Origin: Bacteroidota bacterium
GTDB lineage: Bacteria; Bacteroidota; Rhodothermia; JANXDC01
DNA: 64,000 bases
NCBI GenBank assembly: GCA_025998875.1
Contig: AP024675.1
Span: 2,081,549-2,145,548, forward strand
Direction of reading: 5' to 3'
Both the position numbers and the translations under genes were made by a program. This document shows positions 5,029 through 35,558 of the stretch, piece after piece (the first letter of the stretch is position 1; the number at the start of each line of letters is the position of its first letter). A model generated the notes under the pieces. It saw only the letters and a program-made list of their open reading frames with translations. It was not told where the DNA came from and did no database searches.

Positions 5029-6280
5029 AGCCTCAGGCGCCGGATCCGGCGTGCTGTGGCCTCTTCGATCACGAAACGGAGGCCGCCCGGCAGGAGCAAT
5101 TCTTCTCCCTCGGCTGGAACGCGCCCGGTATGATAGAGGATGAGGCCGGCCACGGTTTCGGGCCGGTTTTCTTCTTCCTCTTCTTCGGAGAAGAGCGGCC
5201 TGCCCAGAAGCCGCTCAAGCTCTTTAAGAGAGGTGCGCCCATCGAGGCGGTATTCTCCCGGGCCGAGCGCCTGTGGGCTCGGGGCGAAATCCTCGCCGGG
5301 TTCCTCAATGATTTCCCACATCACGTTCTCCAGGGTCACCATGCCCAGTGTGCCTCCGAACTCATCGACCACGATGGCGACCGGCTGATTGCGGCGATGC
5401 AGGAGCTCGAGCAGTTCGGTAAGGGGGATCGTGGGGGAGATGAAGAGCGCGGGGCGGGCCATTTTGCTCCAGTCGGGGCGAGTCGGGGGCTCCTGTTCCA
5501 GAAGGGGGAGCAGGTCTTTGGCGTAGAGGATGCCCAGGATGTCATCCGGGGATTTGCCGTAGAGGGGAATACGGCCATAGGGGCTGGTTTCGATCGCACG
5601 GCGCACTTCTTCCCAGGAGGCGGAAGCCGGAACGGCCGCCATGTCTACTCGGGATATGAGCACATCGCGGGCGGTTTTATCCCCGAAGGAGAGCAGGCCC
5701 AGCAGGAGCTGGCCTTCTTGATCGGGGGGAGGGTGCCGGGGGTCTTCCGGGGTAGGGGGAGGTGGGGGCTCCTGTTCGTGCGGTGCGGAGTAGTTGTTTT
5801 TCAGGATTCGATTTAGGGGTTCTAAGGCCCAGGCCAGGGGGAGGAAGGGGAAGGTGAACCAGAACCCCAGATGCTTCCAGAATTCCCCTCGGCCGCGCTG
5901 AGCCTGCCAGTGCATGTATCCCAGTCCGAAGAGCAGGAGCAGGAACACGACCGGATGCCAGGCCTCGGGCAGGGAGCGGCTCACACTCCAGGCTCCGGCC
6001 ACGGCAGTGATGGACCAGACGCTCTGGGCGATGGCTCCGGTCCAGGGGTTGGTGAGGGAGAAGGTAGGGAGTTCTGCTTCGTCGGTTTCTGTTGGCAGGG
6101 CATGCCGCCATCGGGCGGCTCCGAAGTAGCCGATGAGGCCCAGTAGAAGCAGTATACTGCTGATAGCCCAATGCCAGTCCGGGTCCAGATCCACGGCGTT
6201 CTCCGGTGTTGTGCGCTTATAATTTAGGGCAGGAGAGCGGACGGAGGACAGGCGAAGCGGCTAGTGGTTTTCATCCCCCG

Positions 6281-6310
6281 GTTTCAATCCCATCTTGGTT
6301 CGATTAAAAC
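6281..6310 (-). CRISPR. Isolated CRISPR repeat, leader-distal end
   Basis: A 30-bp copy of the repeat found at 8703-8864, in the same orientation, with one substitution (GTTTCAATCCC instead of GTTTCAACCCC on the plus strand). On the minus strand it ends in ATTGAAAC, the usual 5' handle of type I-B crRNAs, so this copy is the more canonical one. It is separated from the next repeat by 2392 bases of gene-bearing sequence and no spacer follows it on the left. The stop codon and last seven residues of the neighbouring minus-strand gene are encoded inside it. Confidence 0.9.
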
Positions 6311-7186
6311 GGTAACCTGAAAAGAATAAGCAAAATTGTCCCGGGGTTCCTCATCGTCGTGCAGCCCCAAATTGTGGGGTATAGATATCGCCATGACTTG
6401 CCAGCCCTCCGGGGCGCCCTTTGCGGCTTCTTTCCTAAGGTTATGCAGGTACATATCCTTAAGTAGTGCAGCAAAAATGCCGCCCCGTGCCTCCATATCG
6501 GTGCTGCGCGCCTGCTCCGTTTCCCGATCATAGACGAAAAACTGCATATAGGTTGCGCACGTGTAGGTCATCACTTTCTCTAGCGCCTTTTTGTATTTGC
6601 CCCGGAAACGCCAAATCCGGTTGGCCTCCTTGCTGTTTTCGGCTACAGCCAACACGTACAATGACGGCACATTCAGGCCGGCAAGCGTTTTTCTTATTCC
6701 GTTGGCAATGATGTACCTTTCCTCCTCCGTCATGTTTTCTAAGTCTACGGCATAGGTACCCAAGTCTGCAGGGAAAGAGTCCAGCTTGGTAAAGAAGTGT
6801 AAAATGTGCCGGTTTGTGCCTTTCTTGGTAAGCCCGTTTTTGAAAAGAAAGCGGTAAAATTCCCTGGATGGTATTATCGATTCCATCAGCACGTTTTCTG
6901 GCGAGCCCGCATACAGGTGGGTGAAATACGTTACCTTTACGCCGCCCGGCATACTGTATTCCAGGGGGTCCAGCGGCATGTTGTGATAGGGCTGAAACAG
7001 CGCCTTCAGCTGCCTGTGCTTTTCTTCGGGGGCTATGATCAGGATGCTTGCCTCGCGGCTGCCTACAACCACAGAAACAAAACCGTCTATGTCGCCGGCC
7101 AGCTTCTCAAACTGCCGCAGATAACCATTAATGTCGGCGGGCGAAAACAGGCCGATGTAGCCCGGGTGATTGTGTACGTCCAGCAA
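6284..7186 (-). CDS. Unknown protein in CRISPR-bounded cargo; C-terminus encoded by a CRISPR repeat
   Basis: A 300-residue frame with a TTG start, of natural composition (GYIGLFSPADINGYLRQFEKL, VSVVVGSREASILIIAPEEKH, ERYIIANGIRKTLAGLNVPS). I recognise no family, and see no signal peptide, membrane helix or nucleotide-binding motif. The same frame is open upstream of the preceding stop (RIGQTGGPVYLL), so it may be the end of a longer gene cut by a TAG at 7217-7219. The last residues (LIEPRWD) and the TGA come from the CRISPR repeat at 6281-6310, so the natural end is probably lost. The stretch is visibly less GC-rich than the flanking genes, consistent with foreign origin. Confidence 0.5.
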   Translation of the reverse strand: MLDVHNHPGYIGLFSPADINGYLRQFEKLAGDIDGFVSVVVGSREASILIIAPEEKHRQLKALFQPYHNMPLDPLEYSMPGGVKVTYFTHLYAGSPENVLMESIIPSREFYRFLFKNGLTKKGTNRHILHFFTKLDSFPADLGTYAVDLENMTEEERYIIANGIRKTLAGLNVPSLYVLAVAENSKEANRIWRFRGKYKKALEKVMTYTCATYMQFFVYDRETEQARSTDMEARGGIFAALLKDMYLHNLRKEAAKGAPEGWQVMAISIPHNLGLHDDEEPRDNFAYSFQVTVLIEPRWD

Positions 7187-7216
7187 ATAGACAGGCCCAC
7201 CCGTCTGGCCTATGCG

Positions 7217-7690
7217 CTACCTTACCTGGCGCAGTGTATCCGAAAGGGGTATGGCCGTGTTGATCTCGCGGCCCAGGGTAACAAGGGGCTTGTGCAGGAA
7301 ATGGAGCGCGCCGTCCTGTATACTGAAATACGAAAACAGCCCCTTTTCGTGCCCGCTTAGCCCATAGATGCTTTTTAGCGTTTCGATAGAATCTTCGGGC
7401 TTGCCCGGCCGAACAGGGGTTTTACTGCCCTCTAGGTCGGGGATGGACTCCATTACGACCTCAGGGTGCGCACCCCGGGTGAGGGCTTCTGCCAGTGCGG
7501 CGCTGTCTTTGATGCGCTTACCCCCTGCCCGGTAGGTGACAATCCATTTGCCCGCGATATTTCTTTCTTCGATCTTGCGCCGGGCGCGCTCAAAAAGCTC
7601 GCGCAAGTCGCCGCTACTGATATCGCGGCCCCGCGCGATCTCCTCATAAAGCCACTCTACATATTCCTGTACGACTTGTGCTATTTCTGA
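7217..7690 (-). pseudogene. Fragment of the cargo gene, without a start codon
   Basis: About 155 residues with good coding character (VVQEYVEWLYEEIARGRD, LRELFERARRKIEERNIAGK, IYGLSGHEKGLFSYFSIQDG) lie in a frame that has no plausible start: it becomes coding just where the neighbouring frame stops at 7681, and ends at a TAG at 7217-7219 after which the same frame continues into the next piece. The simplest reading is one gene broken by a frameshift near 7690 and by a stop at 7217. The family is not recognised. Confidence 0.45.
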
Positions 7691-8472
7691 TCGTTCGCTA
7701 TCTCCGATAAGTCTTCTAGCAGGTGCGGTAAGCTTTCCATATACAGATCGCCCCAGCCGTTCGGTATATTGGGCAGGTTCTCCCTGAAGAAGGGTATCCA
7801 AAAGTTTTCGAGCAGCTTCTCTGGACCGAACAGGGCCGGAAACAGCAGGGGCGCCCACAGGGCCCTGTAGTATTCTTTCGGCTTGTCGGGCAAGGGATTC
7901 TGCCTCGAATCGAATTTGTCTTGTGTAAAGCTGAAATAGTATGCGGTCATTGAATCCGGCCTCCAGTCCACGCTCTCCAGAAGCAGGGCCGGTACGTGCG
8001 GCAGATGCAGGCTCTCCAGGGCCAGCGACAAGTCCACGGCTAGACTCCTGTGCGTAAAAGAGCCTATCGATTGCCTGAATGGCTCCTTCGAGCCGGCCAG
8101 CTCGAAAATCCGCCTCAAGCAGGTTCTCGCTTGCTCTCTCAGCTGTTTCCACAAACCGGATAAGCTCGGCGAAGAAGGATCCAGATACGGTGGCAGGATC
8201 AAACCCAGGCCGGGCTTCCCCGATAGATTCAGCCTGTACAGTTCGTAGCCCACCTGATGCAGCACGCCCAGCAGCTCTTCCTGTACTTCGGCCTCCTTCT
8301 TCGTCTCGGGCTCGTATATCATCTCGAAAGGCATAAGCACGAACTTCTCCAGCCAGTTCGAGTCCTCGACGCAGAGCAGCCAGGCCATCATCGCCAATTG
8401 GCCCCCCGGCGATTGATTCAAGAAGTGTAGCGACCGCAGCGTCTTTTCCAGGGGTCCCGTCTGGTTCGCCAT
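7681..8472 (-). CDS. Unknown protein in CRISPR-bounded cargo (possibly the middle of a frameshifted gene)
   Basis: A 263-residue frame from an ATG at 8472 (a GTG at 8487 is also possible). It contains LEKTLRSLHFLNQSPGGQLA, a WLEKFVLMPFEMIYEPETKK helix, LPPYLDPSSPSLSGLWKQL, and a tail rich in aromatic residues (YYRALWAPLLFPALFGPEKL). The competing frame across the same bases is rich in Gly, Ala and Arg and looks like a shadow. Coding sense passes into this frame from the frame upstream at a run of five T near 8473 and leaves it again near 7690, so it may be the central part of a single longer gene. I recognise no family; no Cas8, Cas7 or Cas5 motif is visible. Confidence 0.45.
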   Translation of the reverse strand: MANQTGPLEKTLRSLHFLNQSPGGQLAMMAWLLCVEDSNWLEKFVLMPFEMIYEPETKKEAEVQEELLGVLHQVGYELYRLNLSGKPGLGLILPPYLDPSSPSLSGLWKQLREQARTCLRRIFELAGSKEPFRQSIGSFTHRSLAVDLSLALESLHLPHVPALLLESVDWRPDSMTAYYFSFTQDKFDSRQNPLPDKPKEYYRALWAPLLFPALFGPEKLLENFWIPFFRENLPNIPNGWGDLYMESLPHLLEDLSEIANDQK

Positions 8473-8702
8473 AAAAACGTTCCTCACTGACTAGCTTGAT
8501 GTCCAACACAATGCCGTGTAGCAGGCCCTGACCTGCACTTTTGCTGTCAGCCAAACGTACCAGGCGGCTTGTGTCGCTAAAGTACCCTACCAGTTCGCCA
8601 CCACCGATGTCGCTTTCTTTCTGTGGCAAACTTACACTAATTTCCAGGCCCAGTTCCTCTTTTATGGCCTGCAGGTCCCCCAAACCAAACAGCACCTCCA
8701 AA
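8470..8702 (-). pseudogene. N-terminal fragment of the cargo gene, cut by a CRISPR repeat
   Basis: The first 75 or so residues (LFGLGDLQAIKEELGLEISV, GGGELVGYFSDTSRLVRLAD, LLHGIVLDIKLVSEERF) are natural-looking and run straight out of the repeat at 8703-8732, where the frame meets a TAA. Only a TTG at 8701 could start it, with the GGGG of the repeat as a possible ribosome site. Coding sense moves to another frame at a T5 run near 8473. The true start was probably lost at the repeat junction. Confidence 0.4.
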
Positions 8703-8864
8703 GTTTCAACCCCATCTTGGTTCGATTAAAACGCCGCGTCGGCTGCGGCTTCTGGCCGAAAACATCCGGTTTCAACCCCATCTTGGTTCGATTAAAACTT
8801 TCTGCTCTAGGGCTGCAGCGAATCTCTGAGCTATGTTTCAACCCCATCTTGGTTCGATTAAAAC
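8703..8864 (-). CRISPR. Minimal CRISPR array, three repeats and two spacers
   Basis: Three identical 30-bp repeats at 8703-8732, 8769-8798 and 8835-8864 alternate with two unrelated spacers of exactly 36 bp (8733-8768, 8799-8834). Reading the minus strand, the repeat begins GTTTTAATCGAACC and ends GGGGTTGAAAC; the RTTGAAAC end is the crRNA 5' handle of type I-B and related systems, so transcription is probably leftward with the leader to the right of 8864. A fourth repeat sits at 6281-6310. The matching cas genes are probably those at 30.7-35.6 kb, which include the Cas6 needed to cut this RNA; that link is inference. Confidence 0.95.
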
Positions 8865-8960
8865 CCCTGGGAAGGCAGAAATAGGGGAAAAGTAAGGATG
8901 GTCAGTATGTCAAAGAACGACTTTATATGGGCAAAATTTGTGGGCTTCTATCCAGGATAG
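8865..8960 (-). promoter_or_regulatory. Probable CRISPR leader
   Basis: The stretch to the right of the last repeat is AT-richer than its surroundings, with A/T runs around 8884-8895 and 8925-8940, and contains no convincing gene. Its position upstream of the array in the inferred transcription direction is what marks it as leader. No exact promoter element is certain. Confidence 0.45.
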
Positions 8961-8973
8961 CCAGGAGAATGTA

Positions 8974-9015
8974 CCGTCGATCTCCGGTTCTTGTCAAGAG
9001 CCTGGAGATCGACGG
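8974..9015. repeat. Long perfect-arm inverted repeat beside the CRISPR leader
   Basis: CCGTCGATCTCC (8974-8985) pairs perfectly with GGAGATCGACGG (9004-9015). The inner bases GGTTCTT and AAGAGCC extend the stem by seven more pairs (one G-T), with a bulged T and a 3-base loop. No T run follows on either side, so it is not a standard terminator. It could be a remnant transposon end, an operator or an RNA hairpin. Confidence 0.8.
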
Positions 9016-9602
9016 CAGATCCCCTGCAGCGGCGCTTCCGGGGCGCCTTCGGCCAGAGCAGGTCTCGGGATCTTGATAAAATGGAGAAGGGAGCTTGCGC
9101 GTGAAAAGAAAAATTATTTAATTTCTTCGGGAGAGGTAATCGGCCCGCTGGGAGCGAAAATGCCCGCGGGCGCAGAGGGAGGGAGTGTCCCTGTGGATAT
9201 TCCCCTCTCAAGTAGGGCAAGGGAGCATCCATACATGCAGCTTGGAGCCCTCATTTCCGGATTCATCCAAATATCCAGGGAACTCGAACAGGCACCGTAC
9301 CTGCTGGCCAACACGCGCATCCCCTCGGTCTCCCTCTACGACTATCTGGCGCCTACGGCCGGACTTGCCGCTGTCCCCGCCAGGGAGCTCCTGCAACCTG
9401 GGGGAAGCCGGCGGAGGTGTGTGGGATAGGTGGTTCGATTGGACGAGTTGGTGGGAATCCTCACAGAACTTCGCAGTGATATGCCGTTCCGCATGTCGTT
9501 CCCTCAGGGGCAGCCAGGCGAGCCGGCTGTTTAGTGGTGAAGCGCCACGGAGTGAGAGGGGAAGAGGGAGCAGGAGATTTTACTTGAGGAAAGGAGCAAA
9601 TC
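9016..9602. other. Gene-poor stretch between CRISPR leader and RM operon
   Basis: No gene can be supported with confidence. A plus-strand frame from 8938 to 9429 is open, but only its second half (around MQLGALISGFIQISRELEQA) looks protein-like, so it may be a gene remnant. A tiny frame at 9430-9534 (34 residues, GTG start right behind a stop, reading VVRLDELVGILTELRSDMPF) has natural composition and could be a remnant or small gene. The last 70 bases contain purine-rich sequence (GGAAGAGGGAGCAGGAG) and the AGGAAAGGAG ribosome site of hsdM. Confidence 0.4.
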
Positions 9603-11182: not shown

Positions 11183-12541
11183 ATGCCCAAGACCGATCTG
11201 CAGGAGAGCGAAACGCTGGAGTTCAAGCGCCAGTGGACCGATCGGGCCCTGGAGGACCTGGCGGCCTTTGCCAACACGCGGGGAGGGACGCTTCTCGTGG
11301 GCATTCGCGAAGATGGCGAAATCGTGGGGGCAAAGGTGGACGACCGGGAAATCCAGCGGATAACGAACCTCATCGCCGCCCATCTGGGCATCACGCCGTC
11401 CCTTCGGGTGGTGGAGATGGAGGGACGTCCGGTGCTGAAAATCCGGGTAGAACCGGCAGCCGGCCTGGTCCCTTACGGCGGACGGTATCTTCGGCGGGTG
11501 GGTACGACCAACCGCGATTTTGCGCCGGACGAACTGGCCCGCCACCTCCTGGAGCGCTCCGGCCGCAGTTGGGACGGTTTGCCCGGCGAGTGGACGCCGG
11601 GCGAGATAGACCCGGAAGTGTTTGCCCACTTTGCCCGTCTGGCCCGCGCCCGGCTTCCCCACCTGGATCCGGAAAACCCCGAGCAGGCGCTGCAGAACCT
11701 CGGGCTTTTGAGTGACGGGCGGCTCACGAACGCCGGGGTGTTGCTTTTCGGGAAGCGCCCGCAGCGGCTCTTTCCTCAGGCCCAGGTGCGCATCGGGATT
11801 TTCCGCGGCACCCAGATTCTCGACAGCCACGACTTTCAGGGCACGCTCTGGGAGCAACTGGAGGGGGCCATGGCGCGCTTCCGCCAGGTGCTCAAGGTGC
11901 GCTTTGAGATCAAGGTCGAGGAGGCCACGCTTGAGGGGCTCCAGCGCAAGGAGGTCTGGGAGTATCCGCTGGATGCCCTGCGCGAGGCGGTGGTCAATGC
12001 GCTTGTCCACCGCGATTACACCTATCCGGCCGACATTCAGATTCGGATCGAAGAGGATCGTCTGGAGGTCTGGAGCCCGGGCGAACTGCCGCCGCCGCTG
12101 ACGCCGGAGGCGCTCTACGGCCCCCATGCGTCGGTGCTGCGCAACCCGCTGATCGCTCAAGCCTTCCATTTTGCCGGCGTGATCGAGCGCTGGGGCACGG
12201 GGACCACGCGCATCGTGCAGCTTTGCCGGGGGCAGGGCCTGCCCGAGCCTGAATTCGCCAATTGGCAGGGCGGGGTGCGGGTGGTCTTCAGCCAGGACCC
12301 CTACACGCCGGAGCGCCTGCGGGCGCTGGGCCTGAACGAGCGGCAGATTCAGGCGGTGCTGTATGTGAGAGAGCGGGGAAGCATCACCAACAAGGAGTAT
12401 CAGCAGCTCACAGGGGTAAGCAAACGAACCGCGTCCAGCGAACTTTCGGAACTGGTGGGAAAGGGTATTCTCATCAAGACCGGCGGTCAGCGGGGACGCG
12501 GAACTACCTATTGGGCAAAAATTGGGAGAATTGGGCAATGA
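11183..12541 (+). CDS. AlbA_2/Schlafen-type ATP-binding protein with RecG-like C-terminus
   Basis: A 452-residue protein between hsdM and hsdS. It opens with an AlbA_2 (Schlafen AAA_4) domain: ESETLEFKRQWTDRALEDLA, AFANTRGGTLLVGIREDGEI, then YLRRVGTTNRDFAPDEL. A HATPase_c_4 domain follows around residues 265-345 (ALREAVVNALVHRDYTYPAD, IVEDRLEVWSPGELPPPLTP-like, FAGVIERWGTGTTRIVQLC) and a winged helix ends it (ITNKEYQQLTGVSKRTASSE). Such proteins often accompany RM and other defence operons as regulators or accessory effectors; the actual role is not established. Its stop overlaps the hsdS start (ATGA), and its last codons lie inside an 11-bp tandem repeat. Confidence 0.9.
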   Translation: MPKTDLQESETLEFKRQWTDRALEDLAAFANTRGGTLLVGIREDGEIVGAKVDDREIQRITNLIAAHLGITPSLRVVEMEGRPVLKIRVEPAAGLVPYGGRYLRRVGTTNRDFAPDELARHLLERSGRSWDGLPGEWTPGEIDPEVFAHFARLARARLPHLDPENPEQALQNLGLLSDGRLTNAGVLLFGKRPQRLFPQAQVRIGIFRGTQILDSHDFQGTLWEQLEGAMARFRQVLKVRFEIKVEEATLEGLQRKEVWEYPLDALREAVVNALVHRDYTYPADIQIRIEEDRLEVWSPGELPPPLTPEALYGPHASVLRNPLIAQAFHFAGVIERWGTGTTRIVQLCRGQGLPEPEFANWQGGVRVVFSQDPYTPERLRALGLNERQIQAVLYVRERGSITNKEYQQLTGVSKRTASSELSELVGKGILIKTGGQRGRGTTYWAKIGRIGQ

Positions 12542-30714: not shown

Positions 30715-32904
30715 ATGGTAGCTGAGCTTCTGGCCAAACCCGATACCCCGCTTCTCGAGCACCTGGAGGAGGTGACCCGCCTGGGTGCGGAAATCGCCCG
30801 CCGGCTGGGGCTGTCCCGAGAGCTGCGCACGAAAGCGCTCCTGGCCTGTGCCCTGCACGATATCGGCAAGGCTACCTCGGACTTTCAGGACTACATCCGG
30901 GGAGGCCGCAAGAAAGCCTATCCCCACGCGCTGGCCTCGCTTCCCTTCGTGCTCGTGGCAGAAGGGATGCTCAATCCGAAGCTGGGACTGGAGCTGACCC
31001 GCTACGAAGCCACCGCTGCCGTGCTCTCGCACCACTCGCCGCTGGGTCCGGAGCTCTACAAGGGCTACGAAAAACCGGAGTACCATCCGGCGCTGCAGGA
31101 GGCGCTCCGTGCGCTCTGGGAGCGGCTTGCGGGGTATGGCGCAGACGGGCTTCCTGTGGTGGACGTGCTCTGGCAGCAGGTACAACACCTCTTGTCTTGC
31201 TCCCCGGCAGCACTGCTCGATATGCCCCAAGGGGGGAAAGAGGAGAGCTGGACGCTGCGCGGTCTACTTCAGCGCTTGCCGGTGGAGGATTTCGCCTGCG
31301 TCAAAGCCGTACTGCACCTGGCCGACTGGCTCGCCTCGGCAAAATGGCCAGACCCGGGACCGCTCTTCCTGCAGGCGGGCAGCCAGGCTGTGCGGGCGCA
31401 TGTAGCCAAGCTCAAGGGACCTCTGCGGGCTTTTCAGCAGAGAGCCGAGCAGACCCGGGACGCGCCGAGGCTCTGGCTCCGGGCACCTACGGGCACAGGC
31501 AAGACCGAGGCGCTGCTGCTCTGGGCAGGCGATGCGGAGCGGCTCATCTACCTGCTTCCCACACAAGCCACGACCAACGCCATGTGGCGCCGACTCCAGA
31601 AGGTGTACGGGGAAGCGCGCGTCGGGCTTGCCCACGGGCGGGCCAGTTACCTGCTCCGGCAAGAAGCGGACGAAGACCCGCTCGATGCGCGCCTCTTCGG
31701 GTCTGTCTTTGCCCGGCCGGTCACGGTGGCCACGCTCGATCAGTACCTGCTTGCCCATCTGCACGGGCGGCACTGGGAGGAGCGCCGTAGTCTTGTGCGC
31801 CGGGCAACGCTCGTGCTCGATGAAATCCACGCCTACGAACCCTATACGCTGGGGCTGCTCCTTGAAGCCCTGCGCCGGGAGCCTCCAGCCCGACTGGCGC
31901 TGGCCAGCGCCACGCTTCCCGAACCGCTTCTGGAGCTTTTTCCCAGAGGCGAGCTCGTAGAGGCCGAGCCCGAACTCTGGGCGCGCTGTCGCCATCGGCT
32001 CACGCTCCGGGAAGGGGCGCTCCTGGAAGAGGGGGTTGAAGGGGCGTTAGCGCACGCCCGAGAAGGGAAGAAGGTGCTCGTGGTGGCCAACACCGTCCGG
32101 GATGCGCAGGCGTTCTACCGAAAGCTTCAGGAGGCGGGCTGGGAGCGCCGGGAGCTGCTGCATGCCCGCTTCATCTTCCGTGACCGGCAGCGGAAGGAAG
32201 CGCGCGTGAGTCGTCCCGAGCCGGGCATGATCTTCGTTGCCACGCAGGTCGTGGAGGTGAGCTTGGACATCTCCTACGACGTGCTCCTGACCAAGATTGC
32301 CCCAGTGGATGCGCTCGTGCAGCGCATGGGGCGTGTCAACCGCCGGGGGGAGCTGCCGCCAGCGCCGGTGTTCGTGTACACGAGCTGGACGGAAGGAAGC
32401 CGGCGCCTCTATGGCGAGGAGATGCTCGCCTGGAGCCGGGACATTCTGGCAGGGCTGTCTTCCAAGCCGAGCGATAGCGACCTGAAAGCGGCAACCAAAG
32501 CGCTCTACCAAAAGGTCATGGCAGGGGAAGAGTGGAAGCGGGAGCTGGACTTGGGGCAGGCGACGCTTGATGAGCTTCAGCGCACGCTCGGTTGCTACAC
32601 GATTGACCTGGCCGATGAGGAGCTTCGGGAGCGCTTTGCCACCCGGCGCGGGATGGTTTCGGTGGAAGTGCTGCCTGCGCAGTTCTGTGAGGAAGCCTAC
32701 GCGCTGCGGGAGCGGGGCGAAGGCTGGCGCTTGCCGGAGCTTCTGATTCCGGTGCCCCTGTGGTGGATTGCCGCTTTTTCGGAGCGGTTTGTTTCGTTAT
32801 CGGATCTGGGTCTGTTGCTTGCCCAGCTGCCCTATGAGACTGAACTCGGGCTCTCTGTGCCGGAGGGCGAAGTCTCCTACCCGGGAGGGTTGATTCTGGA
32901 TTGA
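30715..32904 (+). CDS. cas3: CRISPR-associated helicase/HD nuclease Cas3
   Basis: A 729-residue fusion of HD nuclease and SF2 helicase. The HD part has HLEEVTRLGAEIAR with H18 and LHDIGKATSDFQDY near residue 47; VLSHHSPLG follows. The helicase has Walker A APTGTGKTEALLL near 257, a DEIH box LVLDEIHAYEPYTLG near 368, ATQVVEVSLDIS, and QRMGRVNRRG near 535. Cas3 degrades target DNA after recruitment by Cascade. The gene looks intact with a CAGGAG ribosome site. It opens the cas operon; a decayed copy of its 5' end lies at 17.85 kb. Confidence 0.96.
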   Translation: MVAELLAKPDTPLLEHLEEVTRLGAEIARRLGLSRELRTKALLACALHDIGKATSDFQDYIRGGRKKAYPHALASLPFVLVAEGMLNPKLGLELTRYEATAAVLSHHSPLGPELYKGYEKPEYHPALQEALRALWERLAGYGADGLPVVDVLWQQVQHLLSCSPAALLDMPQGGKEESWTLRGLLQRLPVEDFACVKAVLHLADWLASAKWPDPGPLFLQAGSQAVRAHVAKLKGPLRAFQQRAEQTRDAPRLWLRAPTGTGKTEALLLWAGDAERLIYLLPTQATTNAMWRRLQKVYGEARVGLAHGRASYLLRQEADEDPLDARLFGSVFARPVTVATLDQYLLAHLHGRHWEERRSLVRRATLVLDEIHAYEPYTLGLLLEALRREPPARLALASATLPEPLLELFPRGELVEAEPELWARCRHRLTLREGALLEEGVEGALAHAREGKKVLVVANTVRDAQAFYRKLQEAGWERRELLHARFIFRDRQRKEARVSRPEPGMIFVATQVVEVSLDISYDVLLTKIAPVDALVQRMGRVNRRGELPPAPVFVYTSWTEGSRRLYGEEMLAWSRDILAGLSSKPSDSDLKAATKALYQKVMAGEEWKRELDLGQATLDELQRTLGCYTIDLADEELRERFATRRGMVSVEVLPAQFCEEAYALRERGEGWRLPELLIPVPLWWIAAFSERFVSLSDLGLLLAQLPYETELGLSVPEGEVSYPGGLILD

Positions 32905-32953
32905 ATCCGGCCAATTTTTACTTCAGGGGCGGAGAAAGTCCGAGAGGAGGCTC

Positions 32954-33502
32954 ATGGAGGAGCAGAAACGTCCGGAAGCGCATATCCTGACGGACGAAGA
33001 GTTCGAGCTACTGCGCACCAGCGGGATCAAAATCAACTACTGGGTTATCTGTTCTCGGAAGGTCTGGTTCTACGCAAAGGGCCTCTGGATGGAGCCCCTT
33101 TCTGAGCGCGTAGCGCTGGGCCGCCTGTTGCATGAACGCGTCTACCGCGGGCTTTCGCGCCGGGAGGTACTGCTCGATAATCTCATCCGGATCGATGTGC
33201 TGGAAGGCGAGGATCGGGTACTGGAGGTCAAGTACTCCCGTAAGCTGGTCCGGGCAGCGCGCCTGCAGGTTGGCTACTATCTGTTGTATCTGCACCGGCG
33301 CGGGGCAGGCAAGCTCACCGGGGAATTGCGCTTTCCCCGGGAACGGCGTCGGGAGGAAGTGTATCTGGATCCGGAGCTGGAGCAAGAGGTTGTCCATGCC
33401 CTGCGGGGTGTGCAGGAAATAGAGGCGTTGCCCACGCCGCCGGCAGCGGGTTTCATGCCGCTGTGCCGTCGATGTGCGTACGCGGAATTGTGTTGGGGGT
33501 AA
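32954..33502 (+). CDS. cas4: CRISPR-associated nuclease Cas4
   Basis: A 182-residue RecB-like nuclease with an iron-sulfur cluster. One cysteine lies in WVICSRKVWFYAKG near residue 33 and three in the C-terminal CRRCAYAELCW. The nuclease core shows RVALGRLLHERVY, IRIDVLEGEDRVLEVKYSRK and ARLQVGYYLLYL, the D-E-K and QLxxY elements. Cas4 trims prespacers and helps select the PAM during adaptation. It lies 49 bases after cas3 and two bases before cas1. Confidence 0.96.
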   Translation: MEEQKRPEAHILTDEEFELLRTSGIKINYWVICSRKVWFYAKGLWMEPLSERVALGRLLHERVYRGLSRREVLLDNLIRIDVLEGEDRVLEVKYSRKLVRAARLQVGYYLLYLHRRGAGKLTGELRFPRERRREEVYLDPELEQEVVHALRGVQEIEALPTPPAAGFMPLCRRCAYAELCWG

Positions 33503-33504
33503 GC

Positions 33505-34512
33505 ATGCCGCAGTCGTATTACATTTTTCGGAGTGGACGTTTGCGTCGCCGTCAGAATACGATTTACCTGGAATGTGATGATAACGGTCAGGTACAGAAG
33601 CAACCGATCCCGGTGGAGAATGTGCGTGATCTGTACCTGTTTGGCGAGCTGGATCTGAATACGCGCCTGCTTGTCTTTCTGGCGCAACAGGAGATCGTGG
33701 TGCACTGCTTCAATTACTACGGTTTCTACGTGGGCAGCTTCTATCCTCGGGAGGGGAACGTAAGCGGACATGTGCTTGTGCGGCAGGTGGAGCACTATCT
33801 CATCCCGGAACACCGGCTTGCCATTGCCAGGGAATTCGTCTCCGGCGCGCTTTTTCACATGCGGCACAACCTGCGCTACTATCAGAATCGAGGCAGAAAC
33901 CTGCAGGAGGTGATCGACGGGATCGAGGCCGTGGCCTCCCTGCTGGACTCCGCGCTGGATGTGCCAACCCTGATGGGCCTGGAGGGACAGGCCCGGGAGC
34001 TCTATTACCGTGCTTTTACGGACATTCTGGGGCTCGAGGAGCCCTTTGAGAAGCGAGTCCGGCGGCCACCGAATAACCCGATCAATGCGCTCCTGTCCTT
34101 CGGCAACACGCTGCTCTATACAGCCGTGCTGAGCCAGATTTACCTTACCCAGCTCAACCCCACGGTGAGTTATTTGCATGAGCCCTCAAGGCGGCGTTTT
34201 TCTCTGGCCCTGGACCTGGCCGAGGTGTTCAAGCCGCTTATCGTCGATCGGCTCATTTTCCGGCTTTGGAACAGACGCATGATTCAGGAATCGGATTTTG
34301 AGCCCATCGGGCAGGCCGAAGGGCTCTATTTAGGAGAGCGGGCTCGAAAGGTCTTTGTGCGCGAATTCGAGGAAATGCTCGCCACGACGGTTCAGCATCG
34401 GCGCCTAAACCGTGCTGTTTCCTATCGACAGCTGCTCCGGTTAGAGGCCTACAAGCTTATTCGGCATCTGATCGGTATGGAACCCTATAAAGCGCTGAGG
34501 GCCTGGTGGTAG
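33505..34512 (+). CDS. cas1: CRISPR integrase Cas1
   Basis: A 335-residue Cas1 with MPQSYYIFRSGRLRRRQNTI, LNTRLLVFLAQQEIVVHCFN, the PPNNPINALLSFGNTLLYTA segment and the catalytic histidine region YLHEPSRRRFSLALDLAEVF. It inserts new spacers together with Cas2. The ATG at 33505 behind GGGGGTAAGC is chosen; an in-frame start at 33463 would overlap cas4. All conserved blocks of I-B-type Cas1 are visible, so adaptation should be possible in principle. Confidence 0.97.
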   Translation: MPQSYYIFRSGRLRRRQNTIYLECDDNGQVQKQPIPVENVRDLYLFGELDLNTRLLVFLAQQEIVVHCFNYYGFYVGSFYPREGNVSGHVLVRQVEHYLIPEHRLAIAREFVSGALFHMRHNLRYYQNRGRNLQEVIDGIEAVASLLDSALDVPTLMGLEGQARELYYRAFTDILGLEEPFEKRVRRPPNNPINALLSFGNTLLYTAVLSQIYLTQLNPTVSYLHEPSRRRFSLALDLAEVFKPLIVDRLIFRLWNRRMIQESDFEPIGQAEGLYLGERARKVFVREFEEMLATTVQHRRLNRAVSYRQLLRLEAYKLIRHLIGMEPYKALRAWW

Positions 34513-34514
34513 CC

Positions 34515-34778
34515 ATGTACGTAGTGGTGGTCTACGACGTAGAACAAAAGCGCGTAGGAAAGGTCTGCCAGTTCCTGCGTCGCTATCTGAACTGGGTGCA
34601 GAACAGCGCCTTTGAGGGCGAGCTGACCGAGGGCCAGCTCGAGGAGGTGATCGCCGGTATCCGGGATATAGTCAACCGCCGCTCCGATAGCGTGTATTTT
34701 TACGTGATTCCAGACCGCCGGTGGTGCCGGCGTCGGGTGGTGGGCGTGGAGAAAAACATCACCGATGCGATCCTTTAG
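34515..34778 (+). CDS. cas2: CRISPR-associated Cas2
   Basis: An 87-residue Cas2 with the standard first strand MYVVVVYDV followed by RVGKVCQFLRRYLNWVQNSA and FYVIPDRRWCRRRVVG. It forms the structural core of the Cas1-Cas2 integrase. A GTG at 34506 is in frame but the ATG at 34515, two bases behind the cas1 stop, gives the conserved N-terminus. Confidence 0.96.
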   Translation: MYVVVVYDVEQKRVGKVCQFLRRYLNWVQNSAFEGELTEGQLEEVIAGIRDIVNRRSDSVYFYVIPDRRWCRRRVVGVEKNITDAIL

Positions 34779-34784
34779 AGATTC

Positions 34785-35558
34785 ATGCGGTTGCGTATTG
34801 CCTTAAGACCTCTTCAGGGTTCGGTTCTGTTGCCCTGGCACTACCCCGTACAGCTGCAGGCCCTGGTATATCGCTGGATTTCGGCCGCCAACGCCCAGTT
34901 GGCCAGAAAGCTGCACGATCAGGGCTTTGCGTATGCCTCCCGGCGCTATAAGCTCTTTGTGTACTCTCTGCTGTACGGCGGCCAGAGCCGTGCCGAAAGG
35001 GCCGGGATCCGTATGGAAGGTCAGCTCTCATTTTGGATCGCCTCCCCGATGCGGGAGCTGGTGGAGGCGGTAGCGGCCGGGCTGTTGCAGCGTTCCGAGG
35101 TCGAGCTGGGTGAGGTCCTGCTTCAGGTGGAGCAGGTACTCGTGGAACCCTCCCCGAATTTTTCCGGGCCCCGGGTGCGGATGCAGACCCTCTCGCCCCT
35201 TGTTGTCTCCACCGGCCTGCAGCAGGGGGGGCGTTTGGAGAAGCGTTTTCTTGATCCCTCGGAGCCGGACTTTTCCCGGGTGCTGGGCGAGAACCTGCGC
35301 CGAAAAGCCGCTCTGCTCGGTATCCCGGAAGGAGAGGGGGAGGTTCGTCTGGAGCCCCTGCGCATGCGAAGCAGGCTGTTTCGCGTGCACGGCACAAACG
35401 TGCGCGCCTGGGAAGGGCAATTTTATCTGCAGGCCCCGGTGGAGCTGTTACAGGTGGGCTACGAAGCGGGCCTGGGGGAACGCAATGGACAGGGATTCGG
35501 CATGGTGCGGCTGCTGCTCGATGGCCCTCCCGGGCGCCGTACACGGAGCGTGGGATGA
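34785..35558 (+). CDS. cas6: CRISPR RNA endonuclease Cas6
   Basis: A 257-residue Cas6 with an N-terminal ferredoxin fold (LRIALRPLQGSVLLPWHYPV, QLQALVYRWIS), the likely catalytic histidine at H19, and the C-terminal glycine-rich loop GLGERNGQGFGMV. It cuts repeat RNA to leave the 8-base handle. In type I-B loci cas6 usually comes first; here it follows cas2 by six bases and closes the operon, an unusual order that hints at rearrangement. The array it should process lies 26 kb away. Confidence 0.93.
   Translation: MRLRIALRPLQGSVLLPWHYPVQLQALVYRWISAANAQLARKLHDQGFAYASRRYKLFVYSLLYGGQSRAERAGIRMEGQLSFWIASPMRELVEAVAAGLLQRSEVELGEVLLQVEQVLVEPSPNFSGPRVRMQTLSPLVVSTGLQQGGRLEKRFLDPSEPDFSRVLGENLRRKAALLGIPEGEGEVRLEPLRMRSRLFRVHGTNVRAWEGQFYLQAPVELLQVGYEAGLGERNGQGFGMVRLLLDGPPGRRTRSVG

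Follow-up and report, generated by a model that had tools for sequence, protein, structure and literature searches.

In the 64,000-nucleotide stretch of bacterial DNA that we analysed (hereafter the window), we found that the oldest spacer slot of a CRISPR array is occupied by a 2392-bp segment that is compositionally foreign and that is one contiguous piece, internal or nearly whole, of one large gene. As its origin we tentatively prefer a short-homology exchange between the array and the DNA of an invader, the source probably being an invading element and likely a phage.

The array and its repeats

The array and its leader are made up as follows.

6281..6310, minus strand (strand from leader polarity): CRISPR repeat, trailer-end copy, carrying the T variant, which is the family-consensus base
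6311..8702, minus strand: 2392-bp coding segment of foreign composition, oldest spacer slot
8703..8732, minus strand: CRISPR repeat (C variant), leader-side border of the segment
8733..8768, minus strand: spacer, 36 bp
8769..8798, minus strand: CRISPR repeat (C variant)
8799..8834, minus strand: spacer, 36 bp
8835..8864, minus strand: CRISPR repeat (C variant), leader-proximal
8865..9022, minus strand: leader with an inverted-repeat element CCGTCGATCTCC...GGAGATCGACGG from 8974 (8974-9015), the element being conserved in related arrays

Four 30-bp repeats in the same orientation, two 36-bp spacers and a match to the Rfam family CRISPR-DR2 identify the locus as a CRISPR array. The sequence-only reading had described the pair of repeats that bounds the segment, their common orientation and the interval of 2392 bases, all of which proved exact, and two further copies follow at 8769-8798 and 8835-8864. 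The CRISPR-DR2 match covers all four repeats from the first to the last position, with a score of 38 bits for the left repeat (gathering score 37) and of 30.9 for the other three. The two repeats that border the segment are identical at 29 of 30 positions and differ by T/C at position 8. The left repeat is not degenerate, its T being the usual base in the family, and the C found in the three right-hand repeats appears to be a derived state that spread to new copies during growth of the array.

In the genome, which forms one contig of 2,354,932 bases, the repeat is found only these 4 times, and no further regularly spaced array was found across the 2.35 Mb. The spacer at 8733-8768 has no target in its own genome, its best other match being 15-18 nt long, and no target was found for the spacer at 8799-8834. 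Exact 22-mers taken from both spacers and from both ends of the segment gave zero matches in IMG/VR. Aligned in register, the 24 bp to the left of the trailer repeat (6257-6280) agree with the end of the spacer at 8733 (8745-8768) at about 15 of 24 positions, a likeness that is probably due to chance.

Polarity and related arrays

Using a relaxed repeat pattern, we found 15 loci, mainly in the genomes of thermophiles, with Thermovorax, Fervidicola, Pyrinomonas and an Acidobacteria MAG among the carriers of related arrays. In these arrays the side that matches window position 8865 carries a leader that contains an inverted-repeat element (CCGTCGACCTCC...GGGGTCGACGG), and degenerate repeats are found at the far end. 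Because the leader element of the window array is on the right side, the array is read from the minus strand, and its oldest (trailer) slot is the one taken up by the segment. A docking element for the integrase is one possible role of the leader inverted repeat (CCGTCGACCTCC...GGAGGTCGACGG).

The window array resembles these CRISPR-DR2-like thermophile arrays in its 30-bp repeat with the same ends, in the leader inverted repeat on the same side and in its spacer length, related spacers being mostly 35-38 bp long (n=275). It differs from them in that the element is located 109 bp from the last repeat, compared to 46-47 bp in nine related loci (L137, L138, L140, L142, L143, L144, L146, L148 and L150), in that it has four repeats only and in that its genome is without detected Cas5/Cas7. 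Furthermore, while the segment lies flush between direct repeats as a spacer does, its 2392 bp depart from the length of spacers in the family, and no kilobase coding stretch or comparable coding insert was seen in any spacer slot of the clean related arrays. One related locus (L150) has, on its reverse strand at about 6692-7187, a gap of 495 bp between two repeats of its array, which could be another long insert or the result of lost repeats.

Composition of the segment and search for its source

The lower GC content that had been noted for the segment is borne out: the segment has 0.542, its flanks have 0.637 and 0.62, and the genome averages 0.634. Among 1962 genome windows of the same size, only 17 are poorer in GC and 14 deviate more from the genome mean in tetranucleotide use, which places the segment within the most atypical 1% of the genome by both measures.

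The sequence-only reading had also proposed a similarity search to decide between a viral, plasmid or chromosomal origin. Run at both the nucleotide and the protein level, the search yielded no source match in the collections, and the foreign character of the segment lies in its composition. No match to the segment was found among phages and plasmids by blastn and tblastn, in IMG/VR and GTDB scanned with peptide patterns of the segment, or above cut-off in Pfam, PHROGs, NCBIfam, PADLOC and PDB. No relatives were found in 60 related genomes, in 394 genomes of the phylum, elsewhere in its own genome or in the sister genome, and the spacers of related arrays match the segment at chance level only. 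As regards a possible derivation from a mobile element, the segment combines an atypical composition with zero virus or plasmid matches in the collections searched. We found no transposase, no terminal inverted repeats and no direct end repeats or target duplication that would mark it as an insertion sequence or transposon, and no degenerate repeats above the shuffled expectation within the segment or its flanks. Structure prediction run without alignment gave pLDDT values of 40 and 36, which are unusable.

Coding frames of the segment

The coding features of the segment, all on the minus strand, are the following.

6284..8701, minus strand: Frame A (797 codons), open over the whole segment but for one TAG, with both ends cut by repeats
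7217..7219, minus strand: in-frame TAG in Frame A, 14 codons ahead of the JAMM-like motif
7681..8472, minus strand: Frame B, nested +1-frame ORF of 263 codons, with an ATG at 8472 after GTGAGGAAC and a TAG end at 7683-7681
7133..7174, minus strand: JAMM/JAB-like motif HNHPGYIGLFSPAD (H-x-H-x7-S-x2-D), read by eye

As the sequence-only reading had seen, coding frames are cut at both ends of the segment: a single minus-strand frame enters from the right repeat, where a TAA is the last stop behind Frame A, and exits into the left repeat, where it terminates eight codons in at a TGA (6284-6286). The 797 codons of Frame A contain one stop, compared to 29 and 30 in the other two minus-strand frames, so an internal junction is not needed. 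Being open from end to end, Frame A makes the segment one contiguous fragment of one large gene.

The pattern of GC by codon position shifts to Frame B from about 8476 to 7690. In tests that were devised after the frames had been seen, synonymous permutation of the Frame B codons led to an expectation of 7.0 Frame A stops where 0 are seen (2 of 40000 trials as low), and the reverse permutation of the Frame A codons to an expectation of 6.0 Frame B stops where again 0 are seen (6 of 40000 as low). Host-gene windows with a similar expectation, which are a fairer null than permutation, have zero stops in 3 of 518 cases. Furthermore, Frame A in the overlap is more amphipathic than the residues of Frame B impose (helical moment z 3.0); it is poorer in Pro, Val and His and richer in Glu, Arg, Phe and Tyr, and none of 500 same-phase host windows is as extreme on both counts. 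The permutation and amphipathicity tests hint that both Frame A and Frame B may code over the overlap.

Nested genes of such size are very rare, and indels are common at short A/T runs; the points at which coding switches from A to B and back to A coincide with such runs (8473-8477 and 7684-7686). The locus holds either nested coding frames or one gene with two frame changes, and we lean slightly towards the nested frames. We also considered a pseudogene with three lesions, namely two indels at A/T runs and the TAG, but with Frame A open throughout a nested frame is at least as likely, and for the same reason decay was dropped as an argument for or against an assembly error. Recoding of TAG was considered as well, and the single TAG in 797 codons gives it no support.

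The JAMM-like motif has the H-x-H-x7-S-x2-D spacing of RadC/JAB (JAMM) domain proteins in a RadC-like context. It differs from these proteins in that the best Pfam match for the region, Prok-JAB, scores below threshold (E 0.14-0.23, 12 bits versus a cut-off of 25), and in that the TAG interrupts the candidate domain. The motif was read by eye and leaves the upstream Glu unplaced.

The cas genes

The window also carries a cas gene cluster.

30715..35558, plus strand: cas3b-cas4b-cas1b-cas2b-cas6b, subtype I-B (PADLOC Cas3b/4b/1b/2b/6b, NCBIfam Cas1b)

The subtype I-B set of cas3, cas4, cas1, cas2 and cas6 is present, and the reading frames of cas4b, cas1b and cas2b are open. A search of the whole genome, 5000 bases of which were read as N, with profiles for the Cas5 and Cas7 effector families (PF05107, PF01905, PF09704; E<=0.001) found neither. 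The genes present would thus serve adaptation, processing and Cas3 activity with no effector complex beside them. With no Cas5/Cas7 detected the system looks dead, and CRISPR-Cas interference has probably been lost.

Origin of the segment

Three constraints bear on the origin: the ends are flush with the repeats, the content is a contiguous piece of a foreign gene, and the segment has no mobility function of its own. Three routes fit all of them, namely an exchange in vivo, a bridge made by the assembler and a capture by the integrase, while deletion from repeat to repeat, transposition and entry of a whole repeat-bearing element each fit at most two. No source of the segment was found in the collections searched, and the ranking of the routes is one of plausibility. 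Among the options raised by the sequence-only reading, recombination that brought in foreign DNA and a false join are retained as the two leading readings, and deletion of a longer array is disfavoured, since the 797-codon frame is unbroken and flush with the repeat at each end.

Under the preferred exchange, a large gene of the invader would be the source of two old spacers of the array, with protospacers about 2.3 kb apart. Recombination through the 36-bp identities between spacer and protospacer would have replaced the intervening repeat-spacer stretch with invader DNA, and the outermost ~36 bp at each end of the segment would be genuine old spacers. Neither the insertion nor the self-match would have been punished in a system without a detectable effector complex. 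We infer the parts of this route, that is, the viral source, the two old spacers and the exchange itself; a lone large gene without relatives and with possibly nested frames fits a virus. Frame breaks are few elsewhere in the host genome, at about 20 candidates, mostly short overlaps, across 2.18 Mb of coding DNA, which indicates good base quality. Against the exchange, crossing over twice within 36-bp identities should be a rare event, and the searches turned up neither a source virus nor a protospacer, which leaves the two end spacers as a supposition. For a spacer of 36 nt, the triplet just inside the left end is GAA on the crRNA strand, which is not known to be a subtype I-B PAM, although the PAM of the window's system may differ.

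An assembler that crosses from array to phage at spacers yields an identical anatomy, which counts against the exchange, and the prediction that each 36-bp end of the segment is a spacer is common to both. In such an assembly chimera, which we consider somewhat unlikely while taking it seriously, the true array would have ordinary spacers, two of them matching a phage in the same sample, and the assembler would have left the array at one of these, run through 2.3 kb of phage and returned at the other. This accounts jointly for the flush ends, the direct orientation, the contiguity and the foreign composition, and the segment indeed has no relatives in its own or the sister genome. It requires, however, joins of about 36 bp, which are under the final k-mer of modern assemblers and which long reads would prevent; the genome is in one contig, 100% complete with 0.11% contamination, and a live phage should lack a TAG in a conserved-looking domain unless TAG is recoded. 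Where a false join had been suspected at the repeat itself, this is less natural than a join at a 36-bp spacer/protospacer identity, which gives flush ends on both sides.

We regard as improbable that the segment is an oversized spacer, for which Cas4-Cas1-Cas2 would have joined a 2.4-kb invader fragment to one repeat, with gap filling duplicating the repeat. The layout matches what integration would leave, with repeats in direct orientation on either side and no further scar; the three integration genes are present and open, and the outer T and inner C repeats fit growth on the leader side. Cas1-Cas2 nevertheless measures spacer length, the narrow length range of the 275 related spacers and the lack of a comparable coding insert in their arrays speak against it, and a precedent for kilobase spacers was not found in the open-licence papers searched. 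The combined form, a giant spacer acquired via Cas4-Cas1-Cas2 that contains part of a virus gene in which a 263-codon gene is nested in another frame, is more improbable still. An equally long shot is a recombination at the repeat between the array and an element bearing a repeat of its own, such as the solitary repeat units or mini-arrays of some phages. For viruses, both solitary repeat units and an integration into host arrays by way of them have been proposed (PMC8616872), and solitary units and mini-arrays in phages have been linked to RNA anti-CRISPRs (PMC10651486). Such integration would likewise place foreign DNA between two like repeats, and the two repeats here are one base apart, but a single crossover leaves the whole element, for which the unbroken 797-codon frame leaves no room: what is present is part of a single gene, and the exact repeat is found in 0 IMG/VR contigs. 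The least probable of these readings is that a mobile element inserted in the ordinary way, or that old DNA from the neighbourhood became trapped between two once-separate arrays. The array sits at the left end of an island that is missing from the sister genome, hence in a rearranged locus, and insertion sequences in CRISPR arrays also result in kilobase inserts. In contrast to these, the segment has no transposase, inverted ends or target duplication, and it replaces a spacer exactly, with neither repeat nor spacer interrupted; the flush ends on both sides and the lack of degenerate repeats in segment or flanks argue against trapped DNA as well.

If the segment is real, foreign DNA of gene size can be stored or trapped in arrays, with consequences for the control of spacer length and for the damage that recorded invaders may do to arrays, and the segment would be a material specimen of a virus not otherwise seen. 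Should it be a chimera, it provides a clear template for an array-to-phage error via shared spacers, which could put viral genes unnoticed into bacterial genomes.

Surroundings of the array

In the sister genome a tRNA-Arg is found within about 100 bp of corC, whereas here 29.4 kb lie between them (island 6194-35658). Between the array at its left edge and the cas genes at its right edge, the island contains a type I restriction system together with carotenoid and photolyase genes. Within the hsdM-hsdS-hsdR cluster, a Schlafen/AlbA_2 plus RecG-C-like gene is located at 11183-12538, which PADLOC short-pAgo-associated models match weakly.
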